This document shows, in pieces, positions 1 through 30,132 of a stretch of DNA of 30,132 nucleotides. Below the pieces are notes generated by a model. That model was not told the origin of the DNA, made no database searches, and saw only the letters and a program-made list of their open reading frames with translations. A program made the translations under genes and the position numbers. Within the stretch, counting starts at the first letter, position 1. Each line of letters begins with the position of its first letter. This DNA comes from a virus: the IMG/VR virus record IMGVR_UViG_3300010354_000384, positions 1-30,132 of that record; one strand, written 5' to 3'.

Positions 1-531
1 AGCGCCGGGAGCCGTGTAGGGGACGAAGTAGAACCCGCCCGCGTCGCGGAGCCGGAAGGCCCGGAGGTCGTCGAGGACCGCCTGTGCGATCGGTCGGATC
101 GCGTTGTGGTCGAGCAGGGTCGCCGCGCGGAGCGCGTCCGCCCGGAAGGTCGCCGCCTCGTCCGAGATCCCGGAGGAGAGCCACATCGCGCCGACCTTGT
201 CCCACACGACGCGGTCGACCTGCACCCATCCGACTTCGCGCGCTCCGACCTGCTCGCGACGGAGGATGCCGATCGTGATCGCGACGTCGTCCTCGTGCGC
301 GATCTCCGACTTGAACCGCGCCGAGTTGCCGCGACCCGCCCGCCAGGAGCGCGCGAGCGCGCGGACCTCCGAGGTCGCGTCGAGGGAGGCGATCTGTGCC
401 GAGATCCCGGAGGACGCGACGCGCGCGCGGAGGTCGTCCGGCGTGATCGCGATCTCTCGGAAGTTCCACCAGACGAACGCGCCGAAGGTCGGGAGAGAGG
501 TCGTCGAGGGAGAGGTCGAGGGCGAGTTCAT
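1..531 (-). CDS. Partial phage protein, possibly DUF6744-like
   Basis: The frame opens at an ATG (529-531) with GGAG seven bases upstream and stays open for 177 codons to the window edge, so the C-terminus is missing. The N-terminus is low-complexity Ser/Thr/Pro; residues 15-25 are aromatic (FGAFVWWNFRE), followed by an Asp-Asp-Leu helix and an Arg-rich stretch (SWRAGRGNSARF). A core near residues 85-115 reads ILRREQVGAREVGWVQVD, and the visible part ends near GGFYFVPYTAPG. From memory this resembles the DUF6744 family seen in tailed viruses, whose function is unknown; the match is tentative. It heads a transcription unit divergent from the small plus-strand gene, with a candidate promoter at 588-616. 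Confidence 0.75.
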   Translation of the reverse strand, partial: MNSPSTSPSTTSLPTFGAFVWWNFREIAITPDDLRARVASSGISAQIASLDATSEVRALARSWRAGRGNSARFKSEIAHEDDVAITIGILRREQVGAREVGWVQVDRVVWDKVGAMWLSSGISDEAATFRADALRAATLLDHNAIRPIAQAVLDDLRAFRLRDAGGFYFVPYTAPGA

Positions 532-587
532 CGTTGCTCCGTGGTCGAGAGGGTCGAGTTCGGGTGGCGTCCGCCGCCCGTGTCCAA

Positions 588-616
588 GTCTTAGGCGATC
601 CCTCCGCGCGTGCCAA
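588..616 (-). promoter_or_regulatory. Candidate sigma-70-type promoter for the leftmost gene
   Basis: On the minus strand TTGGCA (611-616, five of six to TTGACA) is followed after exactly 17 bases by TAAGAC (588-593, three of six to TATAAT). It lies 57 bases before the ATG at 531. The -10 is weak, so this is suggestive only. The heptamer CTAAGAC recurs upstream of the nuclease gene (complement at 9991-9997). Confidence 0.3.
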
Positions 617-882: not shown

Positions 883-1597
883 CCGGTCGCGCCCGGAGGA
901 GCGTTCGAGCGATCGACGCGACGACGAGCGAGACGTCCGTGCTTCCGCACCTCTCGGAGTAGGCGGTCCACACCCGGAGGAACCGAGCGTAGGTCTCGTG
1001 GGAGACCTGCCCCCGGAGCGAGCCGATCGAGACGCGCGTGAACCTCCGCTCCGGATACTCCGGAGCCGGAGACACCTCGACGTCCTCGACGTCCTCGTCC
1101 TCCTGCACAGGAGGCACGCGAGGAGCGACCTCTACCTCCTCGATCATCGGACGAGCGAGCCCCTCCTCCGAGAGTGTGAGCAGGCTCGCGATCGTGTCTC
1201 CATCGAAGCCCGTGAGGGTCCAATCCACGGGCTCGTCCGCGAGCGACGAGAGCCCGGAGAGGTAGGCTCCGAGAGCCTCCCACGACCACTCTCCCTCCTC
1301 GTTGTTGTCGCGGATCGCGACGAGGCGCGCGGTCCTCTCGTCGACGTCGAGGACGACGCACGGGACGGTGGCCGTGCGTCCGAGTGTCTCCCGGAGCAGC
1401 GCGAGCCGTTGATTACCGGCTACGACGACGCTCCTCCCTCGCTCGTCTCGCCACACGACGAGCGGACGGTAGAGACCGAAGCGCGCCAGGGAGCGACGGA
1501 GCCGCTCGCGAGCGTCGTCGGAGATCGTGCGAGGGTTGTCCGCGAACTCGACGAGGTCGCGGATCGCGATCTGTTCGATCGTAGTCGTTGTGTTCAC
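869..1597 (-). CDS. ParB-like N-terminal domain protein, copy 1
   Basis: 242 residues from a GTG whose TGA-overlapping context (GTGA) couples it to the upstream copy; GGAGGGAG sits four bases upstream. Residues 10-110 match the ParB/sulfiredoxin N-terminal fold: NPRTIS near 21-26, a helix (RERLRRSLARFG), LVVW, then VVAGNQRLALLR, corresponding to the GxRR-type phosphate-binding loop, and AIRDNNEEGEWSW. An acidic linker (QEDEDVEDVEV) follows and then a C-terminal helical domain. Known family members bind or cut DNA, or hydrolyse CTP in partition; many phage versions are nuclease- or regulator-like with unproven roles. No ParA is nearby, so true partition is unsupported. It is clearly paralogous to the next gene. 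Its 3' end overlaps the convergent small gene. Confidence 0.85.
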   Translation of the reverse strand: MNTTTTIEQIAIRDLVEFADNPRTISDDARERLRRSLARFGLYRPLVVWRDERGRSVVVAGNQRLALLRETLGRTATVPCVVLDVDERTARLVAIRDNNEEGEWSWEALGAYLSGLSSLADEPVDWTLTGFDGDTIASLLTLSEEGLARPMIEEVEVAPRVPPVQEDEDVEDVEVSPAPEYPERRFTRVSIGSLRGQVSHETYARFLRVWTAYSERCGSTDVSLVVASIARTLLRARPATPR

Positions 1598-2322
1598 GAG
1601 GCTCCCTCCGTGTCGAGGACGTCGAGTGCGTGGTCGAGGATCGAGCCCACATCGGTCGCTCCGATCCGCTTCGAGATCGTCTCGAACGCTGTGAGCAGAT
1701 CGCCGTGGATGTGCAGGGGGATCCGTCCACGGATCGCGCCAACGACGAACCTCGTCGTCGCCGGAGGAGCAGGGTCCGGAGCGAACGACGGGTCGACCGG
1801 ATCGCGTGGAGCAGTCACCGGAGACGGGTCTCGCACGGTCCCGGTCGACGGATCGGTTCCGGCCACGAGCGGATCGTCGAGGCTCTCCTCCGGTAGACGC
1901 GCGAGCGCCAGGAGATCGGACACCGTCCGCTCATCAAATCCGGAGAGGGACGCGAGCGACGAGAGGCTCTCGTCCGCGAAGCCGGAGAGGTAGCCGTGGA
2001 GCCGATCCCACGCCCACTCGCCGTCGTGCTGGTTGTCGCGGACGAGCAGGAGACGCGCCTCGACCTCGTCGCCCTCGAACTCGACACAGGAGACGCGGTC
2101 GATCTGCTCTCCGTTGTCACGCATCGAGCGGAGAGCGCGGAGGCGAGCGTTCCCCGCGAGCACCTCGAACCTCCCTCCTCCGATCGAGCGGACGACGAGA
2201 GGAGAGTAGACCCCGAAGGTCCGGATGCTCTCGGAGAGAGCGCGGAGACGGTCCTCCGAGATCGTGCGAGGATTGTCCTCGAACGAGACGAGGTCGTCGA
2301 GCGAAACGTCGAGCGCGATCAC
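1594..2322 (-). CDS. ParB-like N-terminal domain protein, copy 2
   Basis: The GTG at 2322 is chosen because GGAGG lies six bases upstream and the GTGA overlap with the preceding stop matches neighbouring junctions; the frame remains open further upstream but reads through the preceding gene. The product is 242 residues, exactly the length of copy 1. It has FEDNPRTIS, a RALSESIRTFG helix, LVVR, VLAGNARLRALR and VRDNQHDGEWAW in the same order and spacing as copy 1, then a Pro-rich linker and a C-terminal helical region (GDLLTAFETISKRIGATD) resembling copy 1's C-terminus. This indicates tandem duplication followed by divergence. Function is inferred only at the fold level: DNA-binding, CTPase or nuclease. 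Confidence 0.85.
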   Translation of the reverse strand: MIALDVSLDDLVSFEDNPRTISEDRLRALSESIRTFGVYSPLVVRSIGGGRFEVLAGNARLRALRSMRDNGEQIDRVSCVEFEGDEVEARLLLVRDNQHDGEWAWDRLHGYLSGFADESLSSLASLSGFDERTVSDLLALARLPEESLDDPLVAGTDPSTGTVRDPSPVTAPRDPVDPSFAPDPAPPATTRFVVGAIRGRIPLHIHGDLLTAFETISKRIGATDVGSILDHALDVLDTEGAS

Positions 2323-2627
2323 GAAGCACCTCCGAGGAGCAGCGCGAGGGTAGCAAGTCCGGAGAGGAGCGCCAGCGTCGCGAACGACGCCACGAGGAGG
2401 CGAGGCTCCACCCCCGCGACGATCACGCTCCGAGCCTGCTCCTCCGGAGGAGCAGGAGGCCGGAGCACGATCACGAGAGCCGCTCGTCCACGATCCTCGA
2501 CCGCCAGGGTCGCGATGGGAGACCATCCCTCCGCGAGAAGCCCGGAGAGGGTCGGATCCGTGATCGCGCGGTCGATCTCCTCGACGTCGACCCTCACGAT
2601 CCTGCACGGCTGTGCGACGTTACTCAC
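2319..2627 (-). CDS. Small tail-anchored membrane protein
   Basis: 102 residues starting at GTG 2627, preceded by GGAGGATC and overlapping the upstream stop as GTGA. A more distal ATG at 2669 lacks this context. The N-terminal half is soluble, with LLAEGWSPIATLAVEDRG then LVIVLRPP near residue 57; this GW...RP pattern loosely recalls DUF4177-type domains. Residues 77-99 (LLVASFATLALLSGLATLALLL) form a single hydrophobic helix at the extreme C-terminus, so the protein is probably anchored with its domain in the cytoplasm. It is translationally coupled to the unknown gene before it and the ParB-like gene after it. A membrane tether for its cassette partners is possible but unproven. Confidence 0.7.
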   Translation of the reverse strand: MSNVAQPCRIVRVDVEEIDRAITDPTLSGLLAEGWSPIATLAVEDRGRAALVIVLRPPAPPEEQARSVIVAGVEPRLLVASFATLALLSGLATLALLLGGAS

Positions 2628-4053: not shown

Positions 4054-6078
4054 CTACCCCGGAACGACGACCTTCATCCCCGCTCGACCGGAGGGGGTGT
4101 CCTCCCACCGATCTCCGAACACGCACGAGAGAGGGTCGAACGCGAGGAGAACCTTCGCCCCAGGAGCGCCGAACTCACTCCTGCACTTGTCGACGTGTAC
4201 CATCGCCGCCGGGAACCCACGCTGTGAGGACGGGTCGAGGCGCTCGACGACGAGACCGAGGTGTGCGTCCTGCTCGATCGCGCTCGCGCCCTTCAAGTCT
4301 CCGATCTGAATCCGGCGTTGTTGCTGTTTGGATAGCCGGTTCGGGTGGCAGATGAGCAGGATCGAGACGTCGTCGTTCACCCCGATGAGCGCGAGACCCC
4401 GGACGATCTCCTCGATCCGCTGCCTCTCGTGCTCGCCTGCTCCGCGAGCGAGGAACCCGAGGTGGTCGACGAGGACGACGCGGACACCGAACCGTCTCCG
4501 AGCGTAGCGGATCGCGTCGCGGACCTGCTCGTAGGTCGTCTCCCCGTAGTGGTCGAGGAGCAGGATCGGGAGAGCGTCGAGCCTCACGAGAGCCTCCTCC
4601 CGCTCCCGCTGCGAGACCTTCGTGAAGTCTCCCCCGACCTCCGCTCGTAGCAGTTTCTGCACCGTCCCCACCGGACGCTGCTCGAACGAGGTCACGAGGA
4701 CCGGCACGCCCATCCTCGCCTGCTCCCGGAGGAGCCACGTCGCCCACGTCGTTTTGCCGTGGCCCGTGTCGCCTGTGACGACGACGAGACCCGCCGGGAG
4801 ACCTCCCACCGCCTCGTCGAGTTTCGAGGATCCGGTCGCGAGACCCCGGAGCGCGTCCGGTCGAGTGATGAGCGCCTCGATCTCGGTCCCCCATCCCCCA
4901 GGTTTCCGGAACTTGATCGCGAGCATCGGCTCCGCCCGATCGATCGCGCGCTCGATCTCCGCCGCCGGATCCCCCGCCGCGAGGCTCTCTCCGGCATCCT
5001 TGCGAGGGAGCCGCACGCGCGAGCACCGATAGCGTCCGAGCGCGTCGGAGAGTTTTTCCGCTCCTGCCTCTCCTGCCTCGTCTCCGTCGTAGGCGAGCAG
5101 GAACGACCCGTAGGGTTCGAGCAGGTCGAGCCACTCCTCCGGCCAGTTAGCCGACGCTCCCGCCGTCCCGCTCACGCAGTTGACGCGGACCCCGTACTCG
5201 TAGAGCGCGATGACGTCGAGTTCACCCTCCGTCACGATCACAGGGATCGCGTGGTCCCCGGAGAGGCGGTGCGCCCCGAACAGGGGGAGAGGTCGACCCG
5301 TGCAAACGCGGTAGGCCTTCCGGACCTCCCCCGTGTTCTTGCAGGCTCCGCACCCGGAGCCGGAGCAGCGGAGACACGACCCCGGAACCGACCGGAACCG
5401 GACCGTCGAGATCCTCCCGGTGTCGTCCCGGAGAGGGATCGAGACCCACCGCTCGACGACCCTCCCGGATCCGTCTCGGATGAGGTGGGCTCCGAGACGC
5501 CACTCCCGGATCGTCTCGTCGGAGAAGCGCCTCGTCTCCGTGAGGTAGGCGAGCGTCTCACTCCCCTCCGGGCTCCGGAGCGCCCGCTCCGCTTCCTCGA
5601 CGAGCCCGTCCCGCCAGGAGAACGGACCGCCGCCTCCGGGCTCCGGAGCCTGCTCCTCCTGCTCCGGAGGAGCGGTCCTCGTCTCGGTCCGCATCCGAGG
5701 AGCGGCTCCTCGAACCTCCGAGACCGCTCGCACGCGCGGACGCTGCTCCGCCGGAGGGAGCGCCCCGATCCTCTCGAACAAGCCGCGAACCGCCTCTCGA
5801 TCCTGCTCTCCGAGTTCACGGAACCTGCGTTTCCCGATCGAGTACGAGACGAGGTCGACGACGTCTCCGGTCGCGTCGCAACGGTGACACTTCCACCCGC
5901 GCTCGTTTGCGGAGAGCCCGATCGGTCCGCGCCGATCTCCGGAGCCCCTCCGAGCCTCTCCGCACGCCACGCAGGGTCCGAGCGACCGGAGCGGTCCGGA
6001 GCGGAGCCCGATCGAGGGAGCAACCGCCAGGATCGTGAGCGAGCCCGTGACCGTCGAGATCCAACGGTCCGCACTCAC
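4054..6078 (-). CDS. TOPRIM primase-helicase (gp4/Twinkle-like)
   Basis: 674 residues from GTG 6078 (GGAGG six bases upstream, GTGA overlap with the preceding stop). A zinc ribbon is formed by C36, C39, C64 and C67. A second Cys cluster C235-C238-C243-C246 (CLRCSGSGCGAC, DnaJ-like) is unusual. The TOPRIM domain spans about 275-360, with E284 in IVTEGELD and D331/D333 in AYDGDEAG. The hexameric RecA-like helicase follows: Walker A GDTGHGKTT (436-444), Walker B VVLVDHLG (D538), ICHPN near 577-580 and the DnaB-type GASAIEQDA (597-605). It should prime and unwind at the fork. It follows a replisome-organizer-like gene and is the last gene of the replication module before two hairpins. Confidence 0.92.
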   Translation of the reverse strand: MSADRWISTVTGSLTILAVAPSIGLRSGPLRSLGPCVACGEARRGSGDRRGPIGLSANERGWKCHRCDATGDVVDLVSYSIGKRRFRELGEQDREAVRGLFERIGALPPAEQRPRVRAVSEVRGAAPRMRTETRTAPPEQEEQAPEPGGGGPFSWRDGLVEEAERALRSPEGSETLAYLTETRRFSDETIREWRLGAHLIRDGSGRVVERWVSIPLRDDTGRISTVRFRSVPGSCLRCSGSGCGACKNTGEVRKAYRVCTGRPLPLFGAHRLSGDHAIPVIVTEGELDVIALYEYGVRVNCVSGTAGASANWPEEWLDLLEPYGSFLLAYDGDEAGEAGAEKLSDALGRYRCSRVRLPRKDAGESLAAGDPAAEIERAIDRAEPMLAIKFRKPGGWGTEIEALITRPDALRGLATGSSKLDEAVGGLPAGLVVVTGDTGHGKTTWATWLLREQARMGVPVLVTSFEQRPVGTVQKLLRAEVGGDFTKVSQREREEALVRLDALPILLLDHYGETTYEQVRDAIRYARRRFGVRVVLVDHLGFLARGAGEHERQRIEEIVRGLALIGVNDDVSILLICHPNRLSKQQQRRIQIGDLKGASAIEQDAHLGLVVERLDPSSQRGFPAAMVHVDKCRSEFGAPGAKVLLAFDPLSCVFGDRWEDTPSGRAGMKVVVPG

Positions 6079-6602
6079 GAGGCACCTCCACGCCGCCAGG
6101 AGGGGAGAGCCCGGAACAGTTCGCGGACGGGAGGATCCTCCGTCGAGGTCGACCTCTCGACCGCGCTTCGCGAGATCCGGAGCGGAGGTCCGTCCTCGTT
6201 GTCCCACCACCCGTCCTCGCGCGGCTCCTCGTCCGGGTTCGGTGCGACGAGCCGGAACCGACCGGAGACGTTCTCCGTCTCACGCTCCACCGCGCGATCT
6301 CGCCACTCGTGCGCCGCCTCGATCCGCCCCGCGAGTTTTTCCCGACGGAGCAGGCTCGCGAGATCCGTGTAGCGTTTCCGCGAGGGGTTGTCGCCTCGCC
6401 ACCACCGAGGACCGGGATCGTCGCTCTCCGCTGCGTAGCGGACGAGGAGGACGAAGTCGTCGACCTCGTATCCGAGCGCGAGCCGGACCCGGATGAGGTC
6501 TCGCCTCTCGTCGGTCAACCTGCACACCTCCGGTCGAGCCTGCCTCGACCGCCAAGCCTCGAACACGCGCTCGATCTCCTCCGCGCGGACCTGCCTACCC
6601 AT
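6075..6602 (-). CDS. Replisome-organizer / helicase-loader-like protein
   Basis: 175 residues from ATG 6602, chosen for the GGAGG six bases upstream (CCAACGGAGGCGAAG); longer in-frame starts read across the resolvase gene. Residues 5-110 show the layout of phage replication-protein C-terminal domains: VFEAWRSRQARPE, LTDERRDLIRVRLALGYEVDD, then WWRGDNPSRKRYTDLASLLRR and a helix to about residue 105. Such domains occur at the C-terminus of replisome organizers and helicase loaders; here the domain stands alone at the N-terminus. The C-terminal third is acidic and probably flexible (PNPDEEPREDGWWDNEDG). It is coupled to the primase-helicase by GTGA, which fits a partner that loads or regulates it. 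Confidence 0.6.
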   Translation of the reverse strand: MGRQVRAEEIERVFEAWRSRQARPEVCRLTDERRDLIRVRLALGYEVDDFVLLVRYAAESDDPGPRWWRGDNPSRKRYTDLASLLRREKLAGRIEAAHEWRDRAVERETENVSGRFRLVAPNPDEEPREDGWWDNEDGPPLRISRSAVERSTSTEDPPVRELFRALPSWRRGGAS

Positions 6603-7194
6603 CTTCGCCTCCGTTGGTCGTTTTGGCACGAGCGAGCGCGATCCCGACCGCGTCCGCAACGTGTTCCGTTGTTCTGTCGACGAGGAGCGTCCACCCCTCG
6701 ACGAGCGGCGGGATCCTCTCGATCGCCGCCGCCTTCGCATCCTCGCGCTTCGTGGACCGTCGCGCAAGGCCGATCACCTGTGCGCGCCATTCCGCCGCCC
6801 CCACGACGAGCGCGCGCTCCCCGGAGAGAGCCTCGATCGGACCGACGAGGGAGCCGCTCGTCCTCGCGAGGTCGATCGCCGTCCGAACCGATTTACCGAC
6901 GTAGACGTCCTCGATCGCAACTCCGAGGGACGTCCCGACCCCGACGAGACGGACGACCTCACCGACGAGGTCTCGACCGATCTCTCCCGCCGTCGATCTC
7001 CACAGATCGACGGACCTCCCGATCGCTCGTGTCGAAACGAGGAAGCCCCTCCGCCCGGACCGGACGGAGGGACGCCACGAGAGGACGAGGAGGAGACGTC
7101 TCCCGTCGAGGAGACACGCCGCTCCCGTCCCGCCAGGGTCGATGCCGACGACGTAGCGCGACCCGCTCCGGGTCGCGGTGCGAGCCGCGCTCAT
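6595..7194 (-). CDS. RuvC-like Holliday junction resolvase
   Basis: 199 residues from ATG 7194 with GGAGG six bases upstream. The RNase H-like fold is shown by VVGIDPGGTGAACLLD (D19), AIEDVYVGKS (E95, D96) and the late motif EHVADAVGIALA (H178, D181), in the order and spacing of RuvC-family nucleases that cut four-way junctions with two metal ions. The lysine-bearing segment STKREDAKAAAIE before the last motif is also typical. It is slightly longer than E. coli RuvC (about 173 residues). The gene overlaps the next one by 8 bp and follows SSB by 12 bp, placing it in the recombination module, where it would resolve branched replication DNA. Confidence 0.88.
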   Translation of the reverse strand: MSAARTATRSGSRYVVGIDPGGTGAACLLDGRRLLLVLSWRPSVRSGRRGFLVSTRAIGRSVDLWRSTAGEIGRDLVGEVVRLVGVGTSLGVAIEDVYVGKSVRTAIDLARTSGSLVGPIEALSGERALVVGAAEWRAQVIGLARRSTKREDAKAAAIERIPPLVEGWTLLVDRTTEHVADAVGIALARAKTTNGGEDG

Positions 7195-7858: not shown

Positions 7859-8650
7859 TCACGCGGAGGTCCGGACGAGCCGGATCCACTCCGAGAGGTT
7901 GGTGTCGAGCGACCCCGCCAGGGGGGAGCAGGACTTCGTGAGGTACTTCTTCGGACCGTCGAGCAGCACGCGATGCTCGACGACGCGATCGTCTCCGGAC
8001 TTCCGCTCGTTCTTGTAGACGTAGCCGACGACGTTGAAGTATTGCGCCGCGTCCGAGCCCGTTTTCCGTCCCGTGAAGGCCGGACGAACGTGGATCTCCC
8101 CGGTCGCCTCCTCGACGGTCTCCTCGTCGAGCGCGGTCGCGACGACGTCCATGTCGAGATCCCGGAGCGATCGGAAGAACCCGCGCATCCGTTCGGTGAG
8201 GAGCCCGTAGTCCGGGAGGCTCATCCCCTCCGTCGCGTTGCCCTTCGCCCGGAGGATCTCGTCCTGCAAGAGCCGCTGGACCTCCGTGAGACTGTCGACC
8301 ACGAGCGTCTCGAACCCTGCTCGACGGAGTTCGCCGCTCATCGCCGCCCGCATGAAGTCGCGGAGTTTCCCGGCGTCGTTCGCTTGGAACACCGCCGCGT
8401 CCGGGTTCGCGACGCGGATCGACTGAACCCCGTTTGCCTCCGTGAGCAGGAACACCGGCTTCGGAGCGCGAGATCCGGCGTAGGTCTTTCCGGCTCCCGG
8501 CTTCCCGTAAAGCAGGATCTTGAACGCTGCCGCGCTCATCGAGCCCGCTCGCGAGAGGGAGATCGAGAGCCCGCTCCCGGCGTCGCCGGAGGAGGGGGGA
8601 GAGGAGGAAGGAGCGGAGGACGCTCCGGTCCGGATTCGCTGTGTCACCAT
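7859..8650 (-). CDS. Sak4-type RecA-like ATPase (single-strand annealing)
   Basis: 263 residues from ATG 8650; GAGG lies seven bases upstream, better than the GTG three bases later. The stop of the preceding gene is overlapped by 7 bp. After a Ser-rich leader (1-38) comes the nucleotide-binding core: Walker A YGKPGAGKT (48-56), FLLTEANG, Walker B ETLVVDS (D119), then a helix (LTEVQRLLQDEIL) and VVATALDEETVE. The C-terminal half has DAAQYFNVVGYVY, common in phage AAA_24/Sak4 proteins. Sak4 is a shortened RecA core that anneals single strands with SSB and ATP. Its placement between a Cas4-like nuclease and SSB completes an annealing-type recombination set. Confidence 0.85.
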   Translation of the reverse strand: MVTQRIRTGASSAPSSSPPSSGDAGSGLSISLSRAGSMSAAAFKILLYGKPGAGKTYAGSRAPKPVFLLTEANGVQSIRVANPDAAVFQANDAGKLRDFMRAAMSGELRRAGFETLVVDSLTEVQRLLQDEILRAKGNATEGMSLPDYGLLTERMRGFFRSLRDLDMDVVATALDEETVEEATGEIHVRPAFTGRKTGSDAAQYFNVVGYVYKNERKSGDDRVVEHRVLLDGPKKYLTKSCSPLAGSLDTNLSEWIRLVRTSA

Positions 8651-15508: not shown

Positions 15509-15553
15509 GGAACACCTCGACCTGTGGATCGCGGAGGGAGGACGTGATCTCCG

Positions 15554-16492: not shown

Positions 16493-16521
16493 GAGCCCGC
16501 GCCTCCTCCGTCGAGGCTAAC

Positions 16522-18593: not shown

Positions 18594-18675
18594 CCCGACC
18601 TCGACGGGAGCCTCGCCCCTCGCCTGCTTTCATAGCCGGTCGGAGGGTGCCCGCGACGAGGCGGTCGCGCCTCTC

Positions 18676-18716
18676 GGATGAACCCTCCTCCTCCGAGGAG
18701 AGGGAGGCGTTCATCC
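18676..18716 (-). terminator. Long hairpin after the lysis cassette
   Basis: Arms GGATGAAC (18676-18683) and GTTCATCC (18709-18716) are perfect, and the interior CCTCCTCC/GGAGAGGGAGG continues pairing with a few bulges towards a tight loop. It starts three bases after the stop codon of the spanin-like gene (18719-18721). No T tract follows. It is well placed to end lysis-cassette transcription; the 18594-18675 remainder contains the next ribosome site and no clear promoter. Confidence 0.6.
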
Positions 18717-18718
18717 CG

Positions 18719-19117: not shown

Positions 19118-19158
19118 CCGACCTCCGACCGAGACGCGCTCGACGAGACCCACCCCGC

Positions 19159-19965: not shown

Positions 19966-20435
19966 GGATGCTCCGGAGCCGGAGACGCTCCCCCGGTCGA
20001 GGTCGACGAGGGGACGGTCTCGACCTTCACGGATCCATCGCGATCGAGAGACCCGGAGAACTGAACCCCTGCGACCGCCGCGAGGAGGATGATCGCGAGC
20101 GCGACGAGACCTCCCACGACGCGGAGTTGCAGGCTCATCCCCGCCCGGACCTCCTCCGCGATCCGGTCGCCCATCCGATCGATCCGCCCTCCGAGGTCAT
20201 CCATCCGGTCCGCCGTTCGCTCCGCCGCGAGCACTTGACGATCGAGCGATCTCGCGAGGAGGTTCACGATCACCGACGAGGAATCTCCGCCGTCGGACCC
20301 TCCCGCCCCGTTTGGAATGGGCGCGGAGGGAGCGCCCCCGTCGGAGTGTCGAGACGAGCCACGCGACGACGCGGTGGACGGAGCAGCAACCGCAACAGCG
20401 GCAACAGGTCGACCATCGATCGCTTGCGCGGCCAT
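19962..20435 (-). CDS. Single-helix membrane protein, holin candidate
   Basis: 157 residues from ATG 20435 with GGAGG four bases upstream; a nearer-upstream ATG (20456) lacks it. Residues 1-55 are low-complexity Ala/Ser/Gly/Pro. Residues 56-100 form an amphipathic coiled coil (ARSLDRQVLAAERTADRMDD, GGRIDRMGDRIAEEVR). Residues 105-126 (RVVGGLVALAIILLAAVAGVQF) are one membrane helix, and the last 30 residues are polar and Ser/Thr/Pro-rich. Position directly before the endolysin, with a GTGA overlap, points to a holin or antiholin. One-helix holins exist, but a coiled coil this long is atypical, so a lysis regulator or virion-associated membrane protein is also possible. Confidence 0.65.
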   Translation of the reverse strand: MAAQAIDGRPVAAVAVAAPSTASSRGSSRHSDGGAPSAPIPNGAGGSDGGDSSSVIVNLLARSLDRQVLAAERTADRMDDLGGRIDRMGDRIAEEVRAGMSLQLRVVGGLVALAIILLAAVAGVQFSGSLDRDGSVKVETVPSSTSTGGASPAPEHP

Positions 20436-20492
20436 CGGACCTCCGTGATGCCTCACCCTACCACGTCGAGCCCTCGCGCGCGACGAGACCGG

Positions 20493-22226
20493 CTAACCGT
20501 TTCCTGCGTTCGATCCCGTTCCGGAGACCGATCCGATTTGACCTCCGCCGCCGCCTCCGGTCACGCCGGTTCCCGACCTCGCTCCGCCAGGGAAGCCACG
20601 GTAGAGCGCCCACACCCGGAGGGAGAGGACGACCCTCCCGCGAGCGTAGACGATCCGCTCGACCGTCGCCTCCTCCTCGTCCCATCCGAGGCGGTCGTCC
20701 GAGATCCGAACGTTGTCTCCGAGCAGGAGGGTGAACGCGACCTCCGGGAAGCACTCGTAGTCGACGAGGTACGAGGGGAGCGACGTGTGCTCGACGAGCC
20801 AATCGACGACGTAGTTCGCCGTCCCATCATCATGGATCGAGACCGCCTCGACGACGTCCGCCTCTCGGAACCCCACAGCCTCCTGCGAGATCCGGCACAG
20901 TAGGCTGTTCTCCGCGTCGCGGACGACGACCTTCGAGTAGGTGTCGAGCAGCGGATCGTAGCCGTAGCGGAGGGTGAACGAGTTCCGGAGGTCGGACTTC
21001 GAGGTCTCGGAGATCCCGCTCGCGCGGTCGATGCACGGGTACTGTCCTCGACGGAGGGAGGCGACGACGAGCCCCCGCCGCCGATCGGTGACGACCGGAC
21101 CGAAGCCCTCACCCGTCCAAGCGAACGAGATCATCGGGAGGTCCGCCGCGATCACGCTCTCCGCGAACTCGATCGCGCGCGCCGTGTCCGAGGATCCGCT
21201 CCCGTTTGCGTAGACCTGCACGGCCAGGAGCGGAGGGATCTTCGCCGCCGCCGATGCGAACATCCTCTCCGACACGCCGTAGGGACCGACGAGCGACCAC
21301 GAGACGAGCAGGTCGCGGAGGACGTCGAGGACGGAGAGGCTCCCGTCCTTCCGGGAGAGCCTCGCGTAGACCGTGAGATCGTCGTCGATCGGTCCGCTTC
21401 CCGTTCCGAGGATCACCTGTAGGAACGGGATCCCGAACGCATCGACCTCCTCCGAGGTCGACCACGGGTAGACGCTCGACGTCGACGCGTACTCCTGCCC
21501 GTAGACGAAGATCGCATCGACCTCGTGCGCGTGCCCCCAGCACGCGAGCCACGAGCGGTTCGTCGAGGTGACGCGGAGAGCAGGCACCGCCGGATGCCCG
21601 TTCCACACGAGCGGGTATCGAGCCCCGACGGTGTCGTCCGGGAGCGTGATCCCGTAGAACCCCTCCGAGGAGGCGACGAACGGAGGGACCGCGCGGTCCT
21701 GCGTGGTCTCCGGGTCCATGATCTCGATCTCGACGAGTTCCTCGACCGCGCCGAACGAGACGCCCCCGACCATGTCTCCCCGGAGGAGGACGATCCGGTG
21801 GTCGTAGTCGCCTCCGTCCACTTGTAGCGAGACCTCCGCCCACCCCGCCAGGATCCGACGCTCCCGGAGGAGGGAGAGCGCGTCGACGAGGCGACCGTCG
21901 ACCGTGAGCGCGATCGTCCGGAGCGAGGCCGGAGCCGTTCCGATCGCGTACTCCGAGACGATCTCCGGCTCCGCCTGCAACGCAGGTAGATAGGAGTAGG
22001 CTCGACCCGTCGATCCGGAGACGGTCGTGACCGGCTCCGTCGCGATCCGAACGTGTCGATCTCCGCCGAACACGAGATCCACAGTCATCCGGAGGTTCCG
22101 GAGCATCGGATCGCCCGCCCGGACGCTCTCCCAATAGGAAGACCATCCTCCGCGCGGACCTCGATCTCCTCGACGCCACTCCGCGAACACGAGGGGGAGG
22201 TAGTAGGTCGGAGACGCGATCGGCAC
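20493..22226 (-). CDS. Tail-tip / baseplate protein
   Basis: 577 residues from GTG 22226, which abuts the previous stop (TGAGTG); GGAGG is only two bases from it and may serve both. The protein is beta-rich throughout: TVDLVFGGDRHVRIATEP, SLQVDGGDYDHRIVLLRG and GAVEELVEIEIMDPE recall tail-hub or distal-tail modules; the middle (GISETSKSDLRNSFTLRYGYDP) and VVDWLVEHTSLPS, then FTLLLGDNVRISDDRLGWDEEEATVERI read like the hub beta-barrels of siphovirus tail tips, which carry similar turn motifs. A Gly/Ser/Thr-rich tail (GTGVTGGGGGGQIGS) ends the chain. It lies after the tape measure and one large tail protein, the usual site of tail-tip genes. Confidence 0.7.
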   Translation of the reverse strand: MPIASPTYYLPLVFAEWRRGDRGPRGGWSSYWESVRAGDPMLRNLRMTVDLVFGGDRHVRIATEPVTTVSGSTGRAYSYLPALQAEPEIVSEYAIGTAPASLRTIALTVDGRLVDALSLLRERRILAGWAEVSLQVDGGDYDHRIVLLRGDMVGGVSFGAVEELVEIEIMDPETTQDRAVPPFVASSEGFYGITLPDDTVGARYPLVWNGHPAVPALRVTSTNRSWLACWGHAHEVDAIFVYGQEYASTSSVYPWSTSEEVDAFGIPFLQVILGTGSGPIDDDLTVYARLSRKDGSLSVLDVLRDLLVSWSLVGPYGVSERMFASAAAKIPPLLAVQVYANGSGSSDTARAIEFAESVIAADLPMISFAWTGEGFGPVVTDRRRGLVVASLRRGQYPCIDRASGISETSKSDLRNSFTLRYGYDPLLDTYSKVVVRDAENSLLCRISQEAVGFREADVVEAVSIHDDGTANYVVDWLVEHTSLPSYLVDYECFPEVAFTLLLGDNVRISDDRLGWDEEEATVERIVYARGRVVLSLRVWALYRGFPGGARSGTGVTGGGGGGQIGSVSGTGSNAGNG

Positions 22227-25200
22227 TCACACCTCCTCGTCGAGACGGAGCCGGAGCGAGCCCACCGGACGCCACACCGACCCTTCGAGTTTCCATCCGG
22301 GGTTCGAGAGGTCGATCCCGCCGGAGACCCGTCCGAGCACGACGCTCTCCGGGTCGAGGAGGTTCCCGTCGTCGAGGACGAGCACGCTCGCGAACTCGGA
22401 GTATCCCGCCGTCGTCCGGAGGACGTCTCGGATGCGTTGACGTTGCCGATCTGCCTCGCCGTCGATCGAGACGGAGAGGCTCCTCCTCGACGGACCCTCC
22501 GTGTACCCCCATGCGACCCCGCCCCGACTACGGAACGCCGTCACGTTCTCGCTCGACGCATCATCGTGATCCCAGGAGAGCGCCGCCGGGAACCCGACCC
22601 GCACCGACGGGATCGGTGTCCCGATCCGCTGGTAGCCCTCCGCCGGATGCGTGTTCGAGACGAGGAGGCGGAGGTAGGCTCCCTCCGCTGCTTGGTCGTA
22701 GAGCAGGACGCCGCGATCGGACCGGATCGCGAGGCTCGCGCCGACGAGCGCCGATGTGAGCGCGCTCGACGTCCGGAGCAGGAGAGAGGAACCACGATGC
22801 TGCTCGATCACCCACTCGCGAGCGTCGGAGTAGCCACCAGGGAGCCCCTCCGTGATCCGCGCGTAGTACGTCCGTCCGAGCGCGGAGCCGACCTCCGCGT
22901 CCGAGGGGAGCGTCCCGGAGATCGAGATCCGGTTCCCGCTCACCGCGTCGACGCGGAGCCCGGAGAACCGCGTGAGGTACAGCGTCCCCGCCGTCGTGTA
23001 GGAGGCGAACGTTGGATCGTTCGAGTATTGAGCCTGCACGGACACGGCGTTCGTGCCGAAGATCGCGAGCGCGTCGTGACGGAACCTCCCCGCTGTCCCT
23101 CGCTTGTTCGAGTAGGTGAGCGTCGAGGAGGAGAGGGACGTCGAGGCGGTCGCCTGCTTGGCGGAGCGCCACTCGAAACGCGGAGACGAGAGCACGGTGT
23201 TCACGATCCCGAACTGCTGCGAGAGCGTCGAGGAGTGCGTGTCGCCGTCGAACCCGCCGCCCCCGCCCCACGACGCATCGAGCCCCTCCGCGACGTAGAC
23301 CGGGAACGTCGAGAGCGGTCGTCCCCGCACGGTGTCGGGACGGATGCGCCCCGGCGTCGAGGGAAACGCCCCCGATAGGTCGACTTGACCGAGCGCGTTC
23401 CCCTGCTTGATCCGGAGATCCCGCCAGTAGGACGTAGTCGGGTAGCCACTCGCCGCCGACGACACCACCCCGAAGCGGACGCGCTGCCGGACGATGGACG
23501 AGGCGCTCGTCGAGGGGAACAAGCGCGCCGTCGAGAGCCACTCCTCCTTGTCGATCCGACGAATCGAGAGGACGCACGCGCACACCGTCGAGGGTGGTTC
23601 CGGTTGGAACGCGAGCCGACACTCCCAATAGCCCGACGCCATCGGAGTTGCCCCGTAGGTCGCCGTCGACGGGAGGATCTCCGCCAGCGTCGAGGACGTC
23701 CCGACGTCGTAGATCCGGATCCCCGTCCCGTCGAACCGGACCTGTAGGTGCACGGCTCTCCCGCTCGTCGAGCCGGACCGAGGGAGGCTCTCGATGTCGA
23801 CCATGTTCGCCGCCGTTTGCGCGCGGAAGCCCCCGGACACCTTGACCGTCCACTCGATGAGCGATCCGTCCGGTCCGGAGACCGTGCTCTCCCCGATGCA
23901 CCACGAGGCATCCGGGAGCGCCCCGGAGGAGGTCGAGGGATCGACGTACTCGTAGTAGTGACCTCGCGCTCCTGCCCCGGTGGCGTCCGTGAGACGGAGG
24001 CGGTCGGTCGTCCAGTTGCAGGTGATCCCGCCGGAGTAAACGCGCGTCCACGGAGAGACGGACGATGCCCAGGTCGACCCGCCAGGACGACCGATCGACG
24101 TCGTCCACTCGATGACGTCGAACAGCGGACCGTAGGGTTGCAACGCGAACGTCGAGACCGCGTACGCGGAGTAGACGTCGGGAGGGTGCGCGTCCCGGAG
24201 CGGACGGAGGCTCCACCCCTCCTCGCGCCAGTACGAGACCCCGACCTCGTCCGCCGCTCCGTCGAGGTCGTAGATGCTGCCGACGAGGACGAGGGAGTGA
24301 CCGATGTGATGCAGTTTCGCGCGGTGCGGGATGTAGCGCATCGTTCCGTACCAACCCGTCGCGAGCGCGTCGATCGACGAGTACGGATCCCACGATCCGG
24401 AGGCGAGAGAGGCTCGACGGTCGAGCCGGAAGTGCGTGAGGACGACGTTCCCGGACCCGTAGTAGTAACTCTCCGCCAGGACGAGCAGATGGACGAAGTC
24501 CGGACCGCGTCCGAGGAACACCCTCCGGAACGTTGTCGCGGCTCCCATGTAGACCGTCAACGCCCCGGAGGAGGTCGAGGACGCGGTATCCGTGAGGGAG
24601 AACCCCTCCGTCCCCGACGCGGTGTAGACCCTCACGTACTGACCGTACTTGATCGCGAGCAGGAACGACCCTCCTCCGTCTCCTGCTCCGACGACGTCGA
24701 GGACAAAGCGCCCAAGTCCGGTTGACCACGACGTCGCGTAGTTCGCGTCGATGTAGTCTCCATCGGAGACGCGGTTCGTTTCGATCCATGTCGCCCCTCG
24801 ATCGGAGGAGACGAGCGTGGTCACAGTGTAGAGGAGACCCGCCGTGTCGACGTCGTAGTCGACAACGACGATCCGGAGGTAGCCACCGCTCTCCGCGATC
24901 TTTAGTCCGAGGAGGACGCTCGACCGTCGACCCGCAAACCGCGAGAGGACGTTATCCGCGAGCATGGTCCACGAGATCCCGTCCTCCGATCCGTAGACGT
25001 CGAGGTCGCTATCGTAGCGGACGACCGCCCGGAGCGACCCGTCCGGCAACTCGACGACGTCGAAGCCGCACGACGAATCGTTCGTGTTGTCGATCCCGCG
25101 AGGGAACGAGATCGTCGTCGTCGTCCATCCGACCTCGACGCGGTCGACCTCTCGGTAGGCTGCGTGGACGGACCCGGAGCCGGTCCGGTAGACGATCTCT

Positions 25201-25568
25201 CGACGGAGCCGCGAGACGTAGACCGCGCTCACGCCGTTTCCGTACTCCGACCCTCCGAACGGGTCCGAGATCGAGTGCTGAAACCGCGCGTCATCCGACC
25301 CGCGCCACCCCTCGTCTCCCTCTCCCTTGTAGCGCCACGCCCAGGTCGAGCCCGCTCCGATCCCCCCGGAGGTCTGCACGCGCGTCTCGATCGATGCCGC
25401 GTCCGTCGTCGGGTTCCCGGTCGCGAACAGGACGAGCGCGCCCTCGTTGGTCGAGGACGAGATCCCCCTCCCGGCTTGGCGGTCGTAGGAGGACGAGGCG
25501 GACGAGGCGATCCCGCTCGCGACGAAGTCCGGGTCCGGAGGGAGGAGCAGGGAGGTGAGGTTCGGCAC
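22227..25568 (-). CDS. Large tail protein with sialidase-type beta-propeller motifs
   Basis: 1113 residues from GTG 25568; GGAG is six bases upstream and 12 bp follow the tape-measure stop. Two Asp boxes (S-x-D-x-G-x-x-W type) occur in the first quarter: GSEDGISW (193-200) and SSDRGATW (254-261), within repeating beta blades (SLRAVVRYDSDLDVYG, YLRIVVVDYDVDTAGLLY). They mark a BNR/sialidase-like propeller, here probably a carbohydrate-binding or hydrolase part of the tail. The middle (about 540-760) has jelly-roll-like strands (LIEWTVKVSGGFRAQTAANMVD, VHLQVRFDGTGIRIYDV). The C-terminal 350 residues (ALSWDHDDASSENVTAFRSRGG, SVSIDGEADRQRQRIRDVL) look like a tail-tip domain. Catalytic residues cannot be assigned. 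Confidence 0.75.
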   Translation of the reverse strand: MPNLTSLLLPPDPDFVASGIASSASSSYDRQAGRGISSSTNEGALVLFATGNPTTDAASIETRVQTSGGIGAGSTWAWRYKGEGDEGWRGSDDARFQHSISDPFGGSEYGNGVSAVYVSRLRREIVYRTGSGSVHAAYREVDRVEVGWTTTTISFPRGIDNTNDSSCGFDVVELPDGSLRAVVRYDSDLDVYGSEDGISWTMLADNVLSRFAGRRSSVLLGLKIAESGGYLRIVVVDYDVDTAGLLYTVTTLVSSDRGATWIETNRVSDGDYIDANYATSWSTGLGRFVLDVVGAGDGGGSFLLAIKYGQYVRVYTASGTEGFSLTDTASSTSSGALTVYMGAATTFRRVFLGRGPDFVHLLVLAESYYYGSGNVVLTHFRLDRRASLASGSWDPYSSIDALATGWYGTMRYIPHRAKLHHIGHSLVLVGSIYDLDGAADEVGVSYWREEGWSLRPLRDAHPPDVYSAYAVSTFALQPYGPLFDVIEWTTSIGRPGGSTWASSVSPWTRVYSGGITCNWTTDRLRLTDATGAGARGHYYEYVDPSTSSGALPDASWCIGESTVSGPDGSLIEWTVKVSGGFRAQTAANMVDIESLPRSGSTSGRAVHLQVRFDGTGIRIYDVGTSSTLAEILPSTATYGATPMASGYWECRLAFQPEPPSTVCACVLSIRRIDKEEWLSTARLFPSTSASSIVRQRVRFGVVSSAASGYPTTSYWRDLRIKQGNALGQVDLSGAFPSTPGRIRPDTVRGRPLSTFPVYVAEGLDASWGGGGGFDGDTHSSTLSQQFGIVNTVLSSPRFEWRSAKQATASTSLSSSTLTYSNKRGTAGRFRHDALAIFGTNAVSVQAQYSNDPTFASYTTAGTLYLTRFSGLRVDAVSGNRISISGTLPSDAEVGSALGRTYYARITEGLPGGYSDAREWVIEQHRGSSLLLRTSSALTSALVGASLAIRSDRGVLLYDQAAEGAYLRLLVSNTHPAEGYQRIGTPIPSVRVGFPAALSWDHDDASSENVTAFRSRGGVAWGYTEGPSRRSLSVSIDGEADRQRQRIRDVLRTTAGYSEFASVLVLDDGNLLDPESVVLGRVSGGIDLSNPGWKLEGSVWRPVGSLRLRLDEEV

Positions 25569-25580
25569 GAGACGCTCCGA

Positions 25581-28500
25581 TCACGAGGACGTGTAGGGGT
25601 TGAAACGGCCACGGTCGACCCCGACCCTCACTCCGGAAGCACGCCGGAGCCGGTGTTCGAGACGCGGAGCGTGGCCCCGGTCGAGCGCGGTGACCTGCAC
25701 GGCGTCGAGGAGACGACCCTCCGCCATGATCGCGATGTCGATCGGAGCGGACGCCGCCGCTCGCGCCGCCGCGACGGGAGGAGCGGACGACGGTGCCGCG
25801 CCGGTTGCCGCTCCGACGTCCGCGCCGGTCGCCTCCAATGCTTGACGGAGGAGATCCATCGGCTTCTGTGCTGCGAGGACGTAGTCCCCAGGAGCGAAGC
25901 GCGCGAGCATCCCCTCCGTTCCAGCCTTGACCGCGCCCGGAGTGTCTCCGAACGTCGAGGTCTCCTCGAAACCGAGGCTAATGATCTCCGCGATGACGTC
26001 CTTGAAGAACTGCACGAGCGACCGGAGCCCGTCGAGGACCGCCTCTCCGATCGCGAGTGCGAGCGCGACCGGGAGGTCGAGGAGGAGCGCCTCGATGAGC
26101 GCCGGGACCGCCTCGACGAGCCCTCCGACAATCGCGACGATGATCTCCGGGAGCGCCTTCACGATCGCGACGATCAACGTCGGGATGAGGTCGATCAACC
26201 CTCCGACGATCGCGACGAGCAGGTCCGGGAGAGCGTCGACGAGGGAGACGATGATCCGAGGGACCGCGCGGATCACCGATGTGATCAGTTCCGGAAGCGC
26301 GAGGAGGAACCCCTCGATGATCGTCGGGATCGCTTCGAGGATCGCGACGACGAGGTCCGTCACGAGCAGGAGGAGCGCCTCGACGAGATCCGGGAGGAGC
26401 GCGACGATCCCCGCGATGAGGGAGGGGAGCGCCGCGACGACCTTCTCCACCAATCCGAGGACGCCACGGACGAGCGCCTCGACGATCGAGGGTAGGTTCT
26501 CGATTACCGCTCCGATGATGCCCGGAATCGCGTCGAACACCGCGAGCACGAGGTCCGAGATCCCCGCGAGCAGCGTCGTGAGGATTTGCGGGATCGCCGC
26601 CAGGAGCGACGAGACGATCTCCGGGAGAGCCGCGAGGAGGTCGCTCACCGCCTGCGTGATGAACGAGACGACCGAGGGGAGCGCCTCGACGATCGCCCCG
26701 ACGATCACCGGGACCGCCTCCACGATCGCGCCCACGAGGTTCGAGACGACCGGACCGAGACCGTCGAGCAGCGCCGGGAGACCGTCGACGAGGAGAGAGA
26801 CGAGAACGTCGACGACGAGCGGGATCGCATCCACGATCGCCTGCACGAAGGTCGGGACCGCGTCGACGAGGACCGAGACGAGCGACGGGAGCCCGCTCGC
26901 GAGACCCGTGATGATCTCCGGGATCGCGGTGACGAGCGCGTCGACGAGCGCCGGGAGACCGGAGACGAGCGCGTCGATGAACCCAGGAGCCGCCGCCGCC
27001 AGGGTCGAGGCAAACGTCGCGGCTTCCGAGAGGAGCCCCTCGACGAAGTCTCGCGCCGCCTGCGCGGGATCGAGCGCGGAGAGACCCGCCTCGTACTCCT
27101 CCGGCGTGATCGATCCCTCCTTCAACTGCGTTTCCAACTCCTCCCGCGCGGTGTCGATCTCGTCGAGGACCGAGGAGGCGACGTCGGTGAGCGAGAGCGT
27201 GAGCCCTCCCGTGAGTGTCGAGAACAGGGACGAGAGCCCGCTCACGGCGGAGCCGACCACGGAGGAGATCGCGCTCGCCACCGTCGAGACCGTCTCGACC
27301 GCCGCTCGACCGATCTCCGCGAGGGTCTCCTTCGCGCGCGCTCGCGCATCGTCCGCTGCCTGCTCCCGGACCTCACCGATCTTCTGCTCGTAGGCGGAGA
27401 CGATCCCCGCCTTCTCCTCCTCCGTCGCGTCCGCGTACTCGACGAGTTTCGCCGCCTGCTCTCGTTCGAGTGCGTCGATTTTGCGGAGCGTCTCCGCCTC
27501 CGCCCGGAGCCGCTCCCTCCGCCGCTTCGACCCCGTCGCCGCCGCCGCATCTTCGAGCGCCGCGATCTCCTCCGTCTCTCGTCCGGTGAGGATGAGGATC
27601 TCGGAGGAGATCCTCGCTCGCTCCTCCGCCACGCGCCGGTCGTACTCCGCTGCGATCTGCTCTCGGAGAGCGTAGGAGGCGCGCGCGTTCTCCGTGATCG
27701 CCTTCTCCTTCTCCGCCTCGATCCGCTCGATCGCTGTGGCGCTGTCCGCCCGGAGCGACGCGAGGGAGGTCTCCGCGCGCTTGTCTGCCTCCCGTTGAGC
27801 CTGCGAACGCTTCGTCGATTCGTTCGCTTCGAGCAGCGCGAGCGCCGCGAGGTAGCGACGGTTGACCGCGAGCCGACCCTCCGAGCCCTCCTCGTAGAGC
27901 GCCGCCTCGCGCGAGAACGTCTCCGCCAGGAGATCGACGCGGTCCGACGCTGCGACCTCCGCCTCCTGCTCGTCCGTTTGACGGAGTTTCCGGAACTCGC
28001 CCTCGATATCGTTGACGAGTTTCTTGGTGTCCGCCGCCTGTTTCGCCTGTGCGGTCGCGCGGATCGAGGCGAGGTCCGCCTCCATGCTCGCGTTGAGACG
28101 GACGACCTCCGCTTTCTTGCGCTTGACGAGCGCGATCTCCGCCTCGTAGACGCGACGGACCTCCTCCTCGCGTTTCCGGAGGTCCGCGAGGATAACCGCC
28201 GTCTCGTCTCCACTCGCCTTCATCGCCTCGTCCGCGATCCGACGCGAGAGCGCGAGGCGAGCGTCCGTCGCGGACTTCAACTTCGAGGCGTAGTCCCCGG
28301 TCGCTTTCGCCGCCTTCCCGGTTGCATCGGTCTCGTTCTTCGCCCCGCGAACCGATGCGTCTCCCGCGACCGTCCGCTTTTGTAGAGCCTGCTCCGCGAG
28401 GAGAGCCTCGTTCGCGAACGTCGCGATCTTCTTCTGTGCCGCCTCGTGCTGTTTCGCGAGATCCGCGATCCTCGCCTCGACCTCCTCGACCGTTGCCCCG

Positions 28501-30132
28501 TACTTTTGCAGGTAGACCTTGAAGCCGACGGTCTCCGACCCTCCCCGACGGACGTGCTTGTTGTAGTCCTCCATCCTCGACGAGAGGTTGTCCAACTCCG
28601 CGCCGACGAACAGCGCCTCCTTCTGGTTCGCGCGTTGCGCGTCCTGCATTCCGAGGAGCGCCTCCTCGTACCCGCTGGCCCCCGTCGTCGCGAGTTCGAG
28701 CAGGGTCGTTTGATCGAGGACGACCCTGTTCCCGTTCACCATCGTCTCGAACAGCGTCCCGGAGGCGAGACCCTCCGCGATCTGTGCCTCCGAGAGAGCC
28801 GCGAGCCGGGAGAGTTGCCCGTCGATCGCGTTCGTCAGTTCGCCACGCTGTTGCAGTTCGAGCCCGTAGGCTCCGAGCCTGCGAGCCTGCGTGGCTTCGA
28901 GGTCCGCCGCGTTCGCCGCCTCGACCGCCGCTCGATCCGCTGCCTCCTTCGCGAGCGCCTCCTCCGCTGCCTTCTGCCGGTTCGCCGCCTCCTCCGCTGC
29001 GTTGCTCGCGAACACGTAGGATCCGATCGCGACGACGAGCGTGCCGACCGCCGCGACGAGCGCGAGCGTCCCGCCGCTCATCGCGACGAGGGAGGCGTAG
29101 AGCGTCCGGATCACGGTCGTGACCGTCGCTCCTGCTCCTGCGAGGGAGGTCACGGCACCAACGGCGGAGACGACCGCGCTCACGAACAGCCGGACGCGGT
29201 TCGCCAGGAACACGGACCCCATCAACACGAGGAGGTCGTCGAGGATCGGGAGGAGGCGGACGAGAGCCGCTCCGAGAGCCACGGTCGACTGAACGAACGA
29301 CTGAAATCCGAGCGCGATCGACTGTCGGTTCTCCTGCAAGTAGGAGACGAGCGCCTCGATCTGTGCCGCGAACCCTCCGCCGATCTCCCCGGAGGCGGAG
29401 GTGAACGACGTCGCGACGTAGGCGATCAACCGCGAGACCTCGTCGAGCAGGTCTCGGAGCGGAGGACCGTAGGTGTCGAACAGGACGAGTTGCAACTCCT
29501 CCGCCGCCGACGAGACCTCGTCGAACCTGTTCTGCACCGTGTCGGTCATCGCCTCGTAGGTCGCTTTGGTGCTCCCTCCGCTCGCCTCGAACGCGGAGAC
29601 GTATTCGTCGAACTTCGTCGTCCCGTCCGCGAACGCCTGTGAGACGACCGAGATCGAGCCCGCCGCCTCCGTCCCGAAGATCGCGATGAGGTCGGTCGTC
29701 GTCATCCCCGCCTGCCCGATCCGGGTCATCAGTTCGGAGAACGACTGTTGTTCGGGGTTTATGTCCGCGACAGTGAGCCCGTAGCGAGCGAGCGCCTCCT
29801 CCCCCTTCTTCGACACGCTCGTGGCCTGCGAGAGCGCGTTCCGGAACGCCGTGCCAGCCTTCGAGCCTTCGAGCCCCAGGTCTTTGAACAGCGCGACCGC
29901 CGCCGTCGTCTGTTCGAGCGAGTACCCGAACGCTCGTCCGACGGTCCCCGCGTATTTCATCGCCTCCGTCAACGAGCCCATGTCGAGGGTCGAGACGTTC
30001 ATCGCCGTCGAGAACACGTCGGAGATCCGACCCGCCTCCGACGCTGCAAGCCCGAACTGCGACATCGTCGAGACGAGGATGCTCGTCGACGATTCGAGGT
30101 CCGACCCGGAGGCTCCAGCGAGGTAGAGCGCG
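25581..30132 (-). CDS. Tail tape-measure protein (5' end beyond window)
   Basis: The frame is open from the right edge for at least 1516 residues; an internal ATG at 30065 falls inside conserved sequence (SSTSILVSTMSQFGLAASEAG), so the true start is outside. The TP901-type tape-measure core covers the first 180 residues (MKYAGTVGRAFGYSLEQTTAAV, GLEGSKAGTAFRNALSQ). A hydrophobic block follows (LVRLLPILDDLLVLMGSVFLA; SLVAMSGGTLALVAAVGTL), then a long charged coiled coil, then about 300 residues of Pro-punctuated hydrophobic repeats, and a C-terminal cap with FAPGDYVLAAQ. It sets tail length: at about 0.15 nm per residue, over 220 nm, and it should pass through the tail during DNA entry. Confidence 0.93.
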   Translation of the reverse strand, partial: ALYLAGASGSDLESSTSILVSTMSQFGLAASEAGRISDVFSTAMNVSTLDMGSLTEAMKYAGTVGRAFGYSLEQTTAAVALFKDLGLEGSKAGTAFRNALSQATSVSKKGEEALARYGLTVADINPEQQSFSELMTRIGQAGMTTTDLIAIFGTEAAGSISVVSQAFADGTTKFDEYVSAFEASGGSTKATYEAMTDTVQNRFDEVSSAAEELQLVLFDTYGPPLRDLLDEVSRLIAYVATSFTSASGEIGGGFAAQIEALVSYLQENRQSIALGFQSFVQSTVALGAALVRLLPILDDLLVLMGSVFLANRVRLFVSAVVSAVGAVTSLAGAGATVTTVIRTLYASLVAMSGGTLALVAAVGTLVVAIGSYVFASNAAEEAANRQKAAEEALAKEAADRAAVEAANAADLEATQARRLGAYGLELQQRGELTNAIDGQLSRLAALSEAQIAEGLASGTLFETMVNGNRVVLDQTTLLELATTGASGYEEALLGMQDAQRANQKEALFVGAELDNLSSRMEDYNKHVRRGGSETVGFKVYLQKYGATVEEVEARIADLAKQHEAAQKKIATFANEALLAEQALQKRTVAGDASVRGAKNETDATGKAAKATGDYASKLKSATDARLALSRRIADEAMKASGDETAVILADLRKREEEVRRVYEAEIALVKRKKAEVVRLNASMEADLASIRATAQAKQAADTKKLVNDIEGEFRKLRQTDEQEAEVAASDRVDLLAETFSREAALYEEGSEGRLAVNRRYLAALALLEANESTKRSQAQREADKRAETSLASLRADSATAIERIEAEKEKAITENARASYALREQIAAEYDRRVAEERARISSEILILTGRETEEIAALEDAAAATGSKRRRERLRAEAETLRKIDALEREQAAKLVEYADATEEEKAGIVSAYEQKIGEVREQAADDARARAKETLAEIGRAAVETVSTVASAISSVVGSAVSGLSSLFSTLTGGLTLSLTDVASSVLDEIDTAREELETQLKEGSITPEEYEAGLSALDPAQAARDFVEGLLSEAATFASTLAAAAPGFIDALVSGLPALVDALVTAIPEIITGLASGLPSLVSVLVDAVPTFVQAIVDAIPLVVDVLVSLLVDGLPALLDGLGPVVSNLVGAIVEAVPVIVGAIVEALPSVVSFITQAVSDLLAALPEIVSSLLAAIPQILTTLLAGISDLVLAVFDAIPGIIGAVIENLPSIVEALVRGVLGLVEKVVAALPSLIAGIVALLPDLVEALLLLVTDLVVAILEAIPTIIEGFLLALPELITSVIRAVPRIIVSLVDALPDLLVAIVGGLIDLIPTLIVAIVKALPEIIVAIVGGLVEAVPALIEALLLDLPVALALAIGEAVLDGLRSLVQFFKDVIAEIISLGFEETSTFGDTPGAVKAGTEGMLARFAPGDYVLAAQKPMDLLRQALEATGADVGAATGAAPSSAPPVAAARAAASAPIDIAIMAEGRLLDAVQVTALDRGHAPRLEHRLRRASGVRVGVDRGRFNPYTSS
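26035..26985 (-). repeat. Pro-punctuated hydrophobic repeats of the tape measure
   Basis: The encoded stretch is built from units such as ALPELITSVIR, AVPRIIVSLVD and ALPDLLVAIVGG, with prolines mostly 11 residues apart (sometimes 15 where a Gly-Gly insertion occurs). About two dozen units occur. DNA copies share the complement of GACGAGCGCGTCGAC-like strings but are not identical. Limits are approximate. Confidence 0.75.

Follow-up and report, generated by a model that had tools for sequence, protein, structure and literature searches.

The tetranucleotide AGCT is absent from the window (the whole 30,132-base stretch of viral DNA analysed here, a virus record of the linear class with a GC content of 68%), and with it about a dozen other short words have been purged. 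We consider it very probable (roughly 85%) that this phage escaped host restriction by losing the sites that many Type II restriction-modification (R-M) systems recognise. Restriction-site elimination in phages is already well known, and the window is an unusually complete case. Directly observed are the zero count, its execution through codon choice, a selective list of lost words and a split between relatives, some of which lack only SAGCTS (AGCT with G or C on either side) and others every AGCT.

Virus and gene content

The window is a piece of a tailed dsDNA phage, and nearly all genes of the gene model lie on the minus strand (Table 1). Megablast of its first 25 kb against isolated phages gave no match, and no close relative among isolated phages was found by the searches made. 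An integrase was not found among the named genes of the fragment, many of whose genes are unnamed. The idea of a haloarchaeal virus, raised by the high GC content, the lack of CTAG and the many GATC, was dropped because the proteins are not uniformly acidic.

Table 1. Predicted features of the window; G001 is the nearest relative described below.
Feature	Position	Strand	Evidence
ParB_N-domain genes (two, adjoining, apparently related to each other)	869-1597, 1594-2607	-	Pfam ParB_N; PHROGs 498, 620, 723
Primase-helicase (Toprim + DnaB_C)	4054-6210	-	PHROG 239 (E=1.7e-60); Pfam
tRNA-Arg (ccg), probably spurious; lies in the primase gene	5691-5790	-	ARAGORN
RuvC-like resolvase	6595-7194	-	PHROG 1770 (E=8.8e-6)
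PD-(D/E)XK exonuclease	8644-9948	-	Pfam PDDEXK_1; PHROG 1218
Superfamily 2 DNA helicase	10098-11873	-	PHROG 16; Pfam ResIII + Helicase_C
Virion protein with lectin-like (Laminin_G_3) domain	11895-13286	-	
Tail-fibre or head-decoration-like protein	14135-15508	-	PHROGs 30390, 8745, 2647
Unnamed structural-block gene	20493-22226	-	82% protein identity to G001 (residues 1-549)
Unnamed gene, structural block	22227-25568	-	Gene model; relatives in G001, G002, G007, G020; no PHROG or Pfam match
Tape measure protein, continuing past the window end	25581-30131	-	PHROG 1272 (E=3.6e-45); Pfam PhageMin_Tail

Absence of AGCT and codon choice

The original prediction, made from the letters alone, was that AGCT is missing from the whole window, and the string count confirmed it at 0 in 30,132 bases. 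Independent bases would give 88 copies, a first-order Markov model 77 and the second-order model, which had been proposed as a check together with a codon-shuffled null, 107. Shuffling synonymous codons gave 64.2±5.7 copies, with 51 as the lowest value among 400 shuffles; a stricter null that preserves the protein, codon usage and the dinucleotides at codon junctions gave 54.0±4.6, with 39 as the lowest among 100. All six 5-kb blocks were without AGCT, at 14-20 expected per block. Type II site avoidance is taken to begin at an observed/expected ratio below 0.1, and here 0 copies stand against 54-107 expected. Loss extends to every flanking context: SAGCTS was found 0 times (79 expected), AGCT flanked by A/T on one side or both 0 times (28 expected) and AAGCT 0 times, where the Markov model predicts 15 and the codon null 13.8±2.7.

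Active avoidance at the level of codons had been claimed for Glu-Leu and Gln-Leu pairs at a number of sites, and it holds across all predicted minus-strand genes. The 19 Glu-Leu pairs are written GAA-CTC (8), GAA-CTG (6) or GAG-TTG (5) and never GAG-CTN, in a genome whose gene-model training genes use GAG 399 times and GAA 34 times for Glu. Gln-Leu is CAA-CTC (6) or CAG-TTG (1), and Lys-Leu is AAA-CTC (10), AAA-CTG (3) or AAG-TTG (1).

Other purged and kept words

The prediction stands in part: its suggestion of restriction purging remains the best reading, but AGCT is just one among the purged words. Counts of further words are given as observed/expected under the second-order Markov model for positions 1 to 30,132: CTCGAG 0/77, GASTC 0/113, CCGCGG 0/40, CTAG 0/44, CTSAG 0/37, CAGAG 0/40, CCTGA 0/34, CGGCCG 0/23, GGCGCC 0/15, GCCGGC 0/13, CCCGGG 0/13, AGCGCT 0/14, GGCC 29/110 and CYCGRG 1/154 (1/85 under the codon null). 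Depletion of these words persists under the codon-preserving null, where the expectation for CTAG is just 5. CGATCG, GTCGAC, GACGTC, TCGCGA, CGCGCG, GGATCC, GATC and TCGA occur at or above the codon-null expectation. Such a selective and mostly palindromic loss is what avoidance of many Type II systems predicts, and composition does not predict it. We take AGCT, CYCGRG, CCGCGG, CGGCCG, GGCGCC, GCCGGC and AGCGCT to be recognised Type II specificities. Also among the purged words are CCTGA, CTCTTC and GASTC without GAWTC, which differ from the usual palindromic sites of Type II systems. CAGAG is a Type III site listed as avoided in phages (PMC6286503). The split of GANTC in the window, with GASTC at 0/113 and GAWTC at 14/~28, resembles that of SAGCTS.

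Nearest relative

With the gene at 20493-22226 as query, the nearest relative was found to be IMGVR_UViG_3300032249_001209 (G001; 31,135 bases), which is collinear with positions 15225 to 30130 of the window (minus strand) at ~74% DNA identity. G001 lacks SAGCTS (0/74) and carries its remaining AGCT at the expected frequency (32/31), in all but one case in an AAGCT/AGCTT context. Comparison with related phages had been proposed along with the prediction, and its outcome was mixed in that this relative and most other avoiders are without SAGCTS rather than without AGCT. Because SAGCTS is absent from G001 and AAGCT from the window, the avoided word differs between the two, being SAGCTS in G001 and AGCT in the window.

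The collinear block holds 14 AGCT in G001, each with A at the left or T at the right, and none of the 14 is retained in the window. Other 4-mers in which A, C, G and T occur once each are retained at 48%, which gives P ~1e-4, an optimistic value because 5-mers containing AAG are retained at a lower rate of about 10-15%. The zero count of AAGCT in the window against the Markov and codon nulls is the stronger evidence. Relatives recognised by the primase (42-55% identity) mostly have normal AGCT, so that clade as a whole is not characterised by avoidance.

SAGCTS in the phage group and in unrelated phages

The head protein of G001 as query returned 28 further records with GC contents of 33-73%. 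Pooled avoiders among them (GC 34–72%) hold 4 SAGCTS where 357 are expected, a figure that describes the shape of the motif and not its prevalence, since the pool was picked as avoiders. By word, the counts were CAGCTC 3/145, CAGCTG 0/61 and GAGCTC 1/151, and words with an A/T flank stood near expectation (AAGCTC 153/142, AAGCTG 150/138, CAGCTA 51/67, GAGCTA 41/69, TAGCTA 26/26). Five loci of the group (L113, L114, L123, L132 and L157) do not avoid SAGCTS. AGCT is wholly absent from L135 and L136 (0/41; the full record G031, of 78.5 kb, stands at 0/302).

In a scan of 96 flank-degenerate palindromes, SAGCTS ranked first: it was the word most frequently lost while the copies with other flanks remained, which was the case in 9/23 group records and 4/32 unrelated contigs. 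Most of the words ranked next (RGATCY, YACGTR, RCCGGY, RGCGCY, YGGCCR and RCATGY) are Type II sites. SAGCTS behaves like a genuine enzyme site.

Among isolated phages, SAGCTS is missing from MinM2 of Synechococcus (0/49) and from Pag-Yong1 (0/53), which from its equal length and match is probably near-identical to MinM2. It is nearly missing from Pasto of Bradyrhizobium (1/52) and strongly reduced in CRP-113, a Roseobacter phage of Paracoccaceae (2/37). Avoidance was absent or weak in CRP-361 (50/64), S-CBP3 (66/71) and HTVC134P (11/19). Unrelated phages with a SAGCTS purge include L040, L070, L081, L088, MinM2, CRP-113 and Pasto.

Two minor observations concern other words in the group. The distant relative G031 (L150-L153, 78,511 bases) is a case of extreme purging, with ~40 palindromes entirely gone and no PF01555 or PF00145 methyltransferase, and in L111 ACGT is at 0/19.

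Host search and alternative explanations

A host chromosome lacking the same words, whose signature the phage simply mirrors, is a very unlikely explanation. Prokaryotes too avoid the sites that their own Type II enzymes recognise, but nearly excluded sites are rarer in them than in phages (PMC6286503). AGCT is moreover near expectation in short loci of Myxococcota genomes, the one phylum to which a closely related phage contig points. This hint comes from alignment of the head protein to genomes, which found one contig of a Myxococcales metagenome-assembled genome (MAG) and, at a distance, three Elusimicrobia and one Thermodesulfobacteriota; only the Myxococcales contig is clearly syntenic with the phage group, and SAGCTS is not avoided there. 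This contig (L157; MAG DT_69, JABSQV010000130.1) is either a possible hint of the host or a case of misbinning. Alignment of the primase to 84,980 genomes gave no match, and neither did a search for the BsoBI/AvaI family in 284 Myxococcota genomes, in which the control was silent too, so that this second result carries no information.

It is highly improbable that the phages themselves encode a SAGCTS endonuclease which destroys host DNA and from which their own genomes are protected by being free of sites. Recurrent loss within one group over GC contents from 34 to 72% speaks against a single host and so in favour of such a nuclease. However, unrelated phages show the same purge, avoiders and non-avoiders are intermixed on the head-protein tree, with 5-7 changes needed, and BLAST found no gene cluster shared by the avoiders but lacking in the non-avoiders, several of the records being fragments.

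We give hardly any credence to compositional or codon bias (richness in GA/TC and CG and in the codons CTC, GTC and GCG) with no selection on the word. The values are indeed extreme, GA/TC occurring at 1.9x expected and Leu being written CTC 554 times and CTG 86 times, and the bias explains part of the CTAG deficit, of which the codon null expects so few. Yet nulls that keep trinucleotides, or protein, codons and junctions, still expect 54-107 AGCT, and G001 is similar in composition with normal A/T-flanked AGCT. For AGCT, CYCGRG, GASTC and CCGCGG the strict codon null refutes this bias. A technical artefact of a restriction-cut library or of assembly, in favour of which nothing was found, can be practically dismissed, as the 30-kb contig lacks many kinds of site and makes codon choices that avoid them, the relative from a different sample has AGCT, and at the aligned sites the two relatives differ by ordinary substitutions.

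Restriction as the probable selective pressure

Restriction by the host remains the preferred reading, and we infer its enzymes and the order of events as follows. Cut sites would be lethal unless methylated, leaving site-free variants to survive, and mostly synonymous changes would remove nearly all sites. The SAGCTS purge would be shared by the lineage of the window and G001, with the purge of AGCT following in the window lineage, because the relatives purge SAGCTS and keep other AGCT. A later enzyme of the AluI type, which recognises plain AGCT, may then have cleared the remaining copies, and AvaI-like (CYCGRG) and other enzymes may have put further pressures on this lineage.

Methyltransferases of the families PF01555 and PF00145 were not found in the window fragment, in G001 or in most avoiders; the avoider G020 has one PF01555 gene. 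Several PF01555 and PF00145 genes are carried by G033, a SAGCTS-rich relative (35/16 in the part examined, L017), which as one case fits a choice between purging sites and modifying them. Anti-restriction or methyltransferase genes of the phage may lie beyond the fragment.

Both words, AGCT and SAGCTS, are known from publications as methylation motifs. In Beggiatoa leptomitoformis, SAGCTS is the measured m4C motif of M.Ble402III (strain D-402) and of the corresponding M.Ble401III (strain D-401) (PMC4675945, PMC5920184), and in the literature searched the string appears only in these two papers, as a Beggiatoa methylation mark. The motif is identical to the word purged by the relatives of the window, but M.Ble402III is a bacterial methyltransferase and no link between Beggiatoa and these phages emerged. 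For AGCT, m4C methylation is described from archaea as well as from a lake Thaumarchaeota genome (PMC10609329, PMC6329791). AluI-type systems, among them the m4C AGCT methyltransferases of archaea, act on AGCT whatever its flanks, which matches the purge in the window, although the archaeal enzymes are persistent orphans without a nuclease (PMC10609329).

According to Rusinov et al. 2018 (PMC6286503), roughly one viral genome in ten has eliminated sites completely or almost completely. The window resembles these cases in being from a dsDNA tailed phage with near-zero counts of Type II palindromes, and differs from them in that about a dozen words are purged at once.

It is the recurrent purge of SAGCTS, in phages whose hosts belong to several phyla, that deserves to be followed, and it suggests a common and little-described restriction specificity. 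More broadly, and only tentatively, since we would put it somewhat short of an even bet, a restriction specificity (or some other nuclease of the hosts) directed at SAGCTS may be spread far more widely across bacterial phyla than published reports suggest. It would have left its mark on phages of Cyanobacteria and Alphaproteobacteria, perhaps on those of enterobacteria, and on a large uncultured phage group, and the window would record an extension of the pressure from SAGCTS to AGCT. The words purged from uncultured phages approximate a list of the restriction enzymes that their hosts used against them. Rules on flanking bases can be recovered here (S-AGCT-S as against AGCT) and point to specific enzymes to look for, and lists of purged words may aid in assigning orphan phages to their hosts through the methylome.

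Comparison with T7

Phage T7 (NC_001604) is like the window in having lost GATC, CTCGAG, CTGCAG, GAGCTC and others, and its partial purge of SAGCTS (5/58) is a further likeness. It is unlike the window in keeping most other AGCT (135/174 expected), of which the window has 0. A literature search on the joint depletion of CAGCTG and GAGCTC in T7 returned nothing relevant. The non-palindromic CAGCTC/GAGCTG occurs 2 times in T7 against 29 expected, and its A/T-flanked AGCT are mostly near expectation, except for AAGCTT and AAGCTC.
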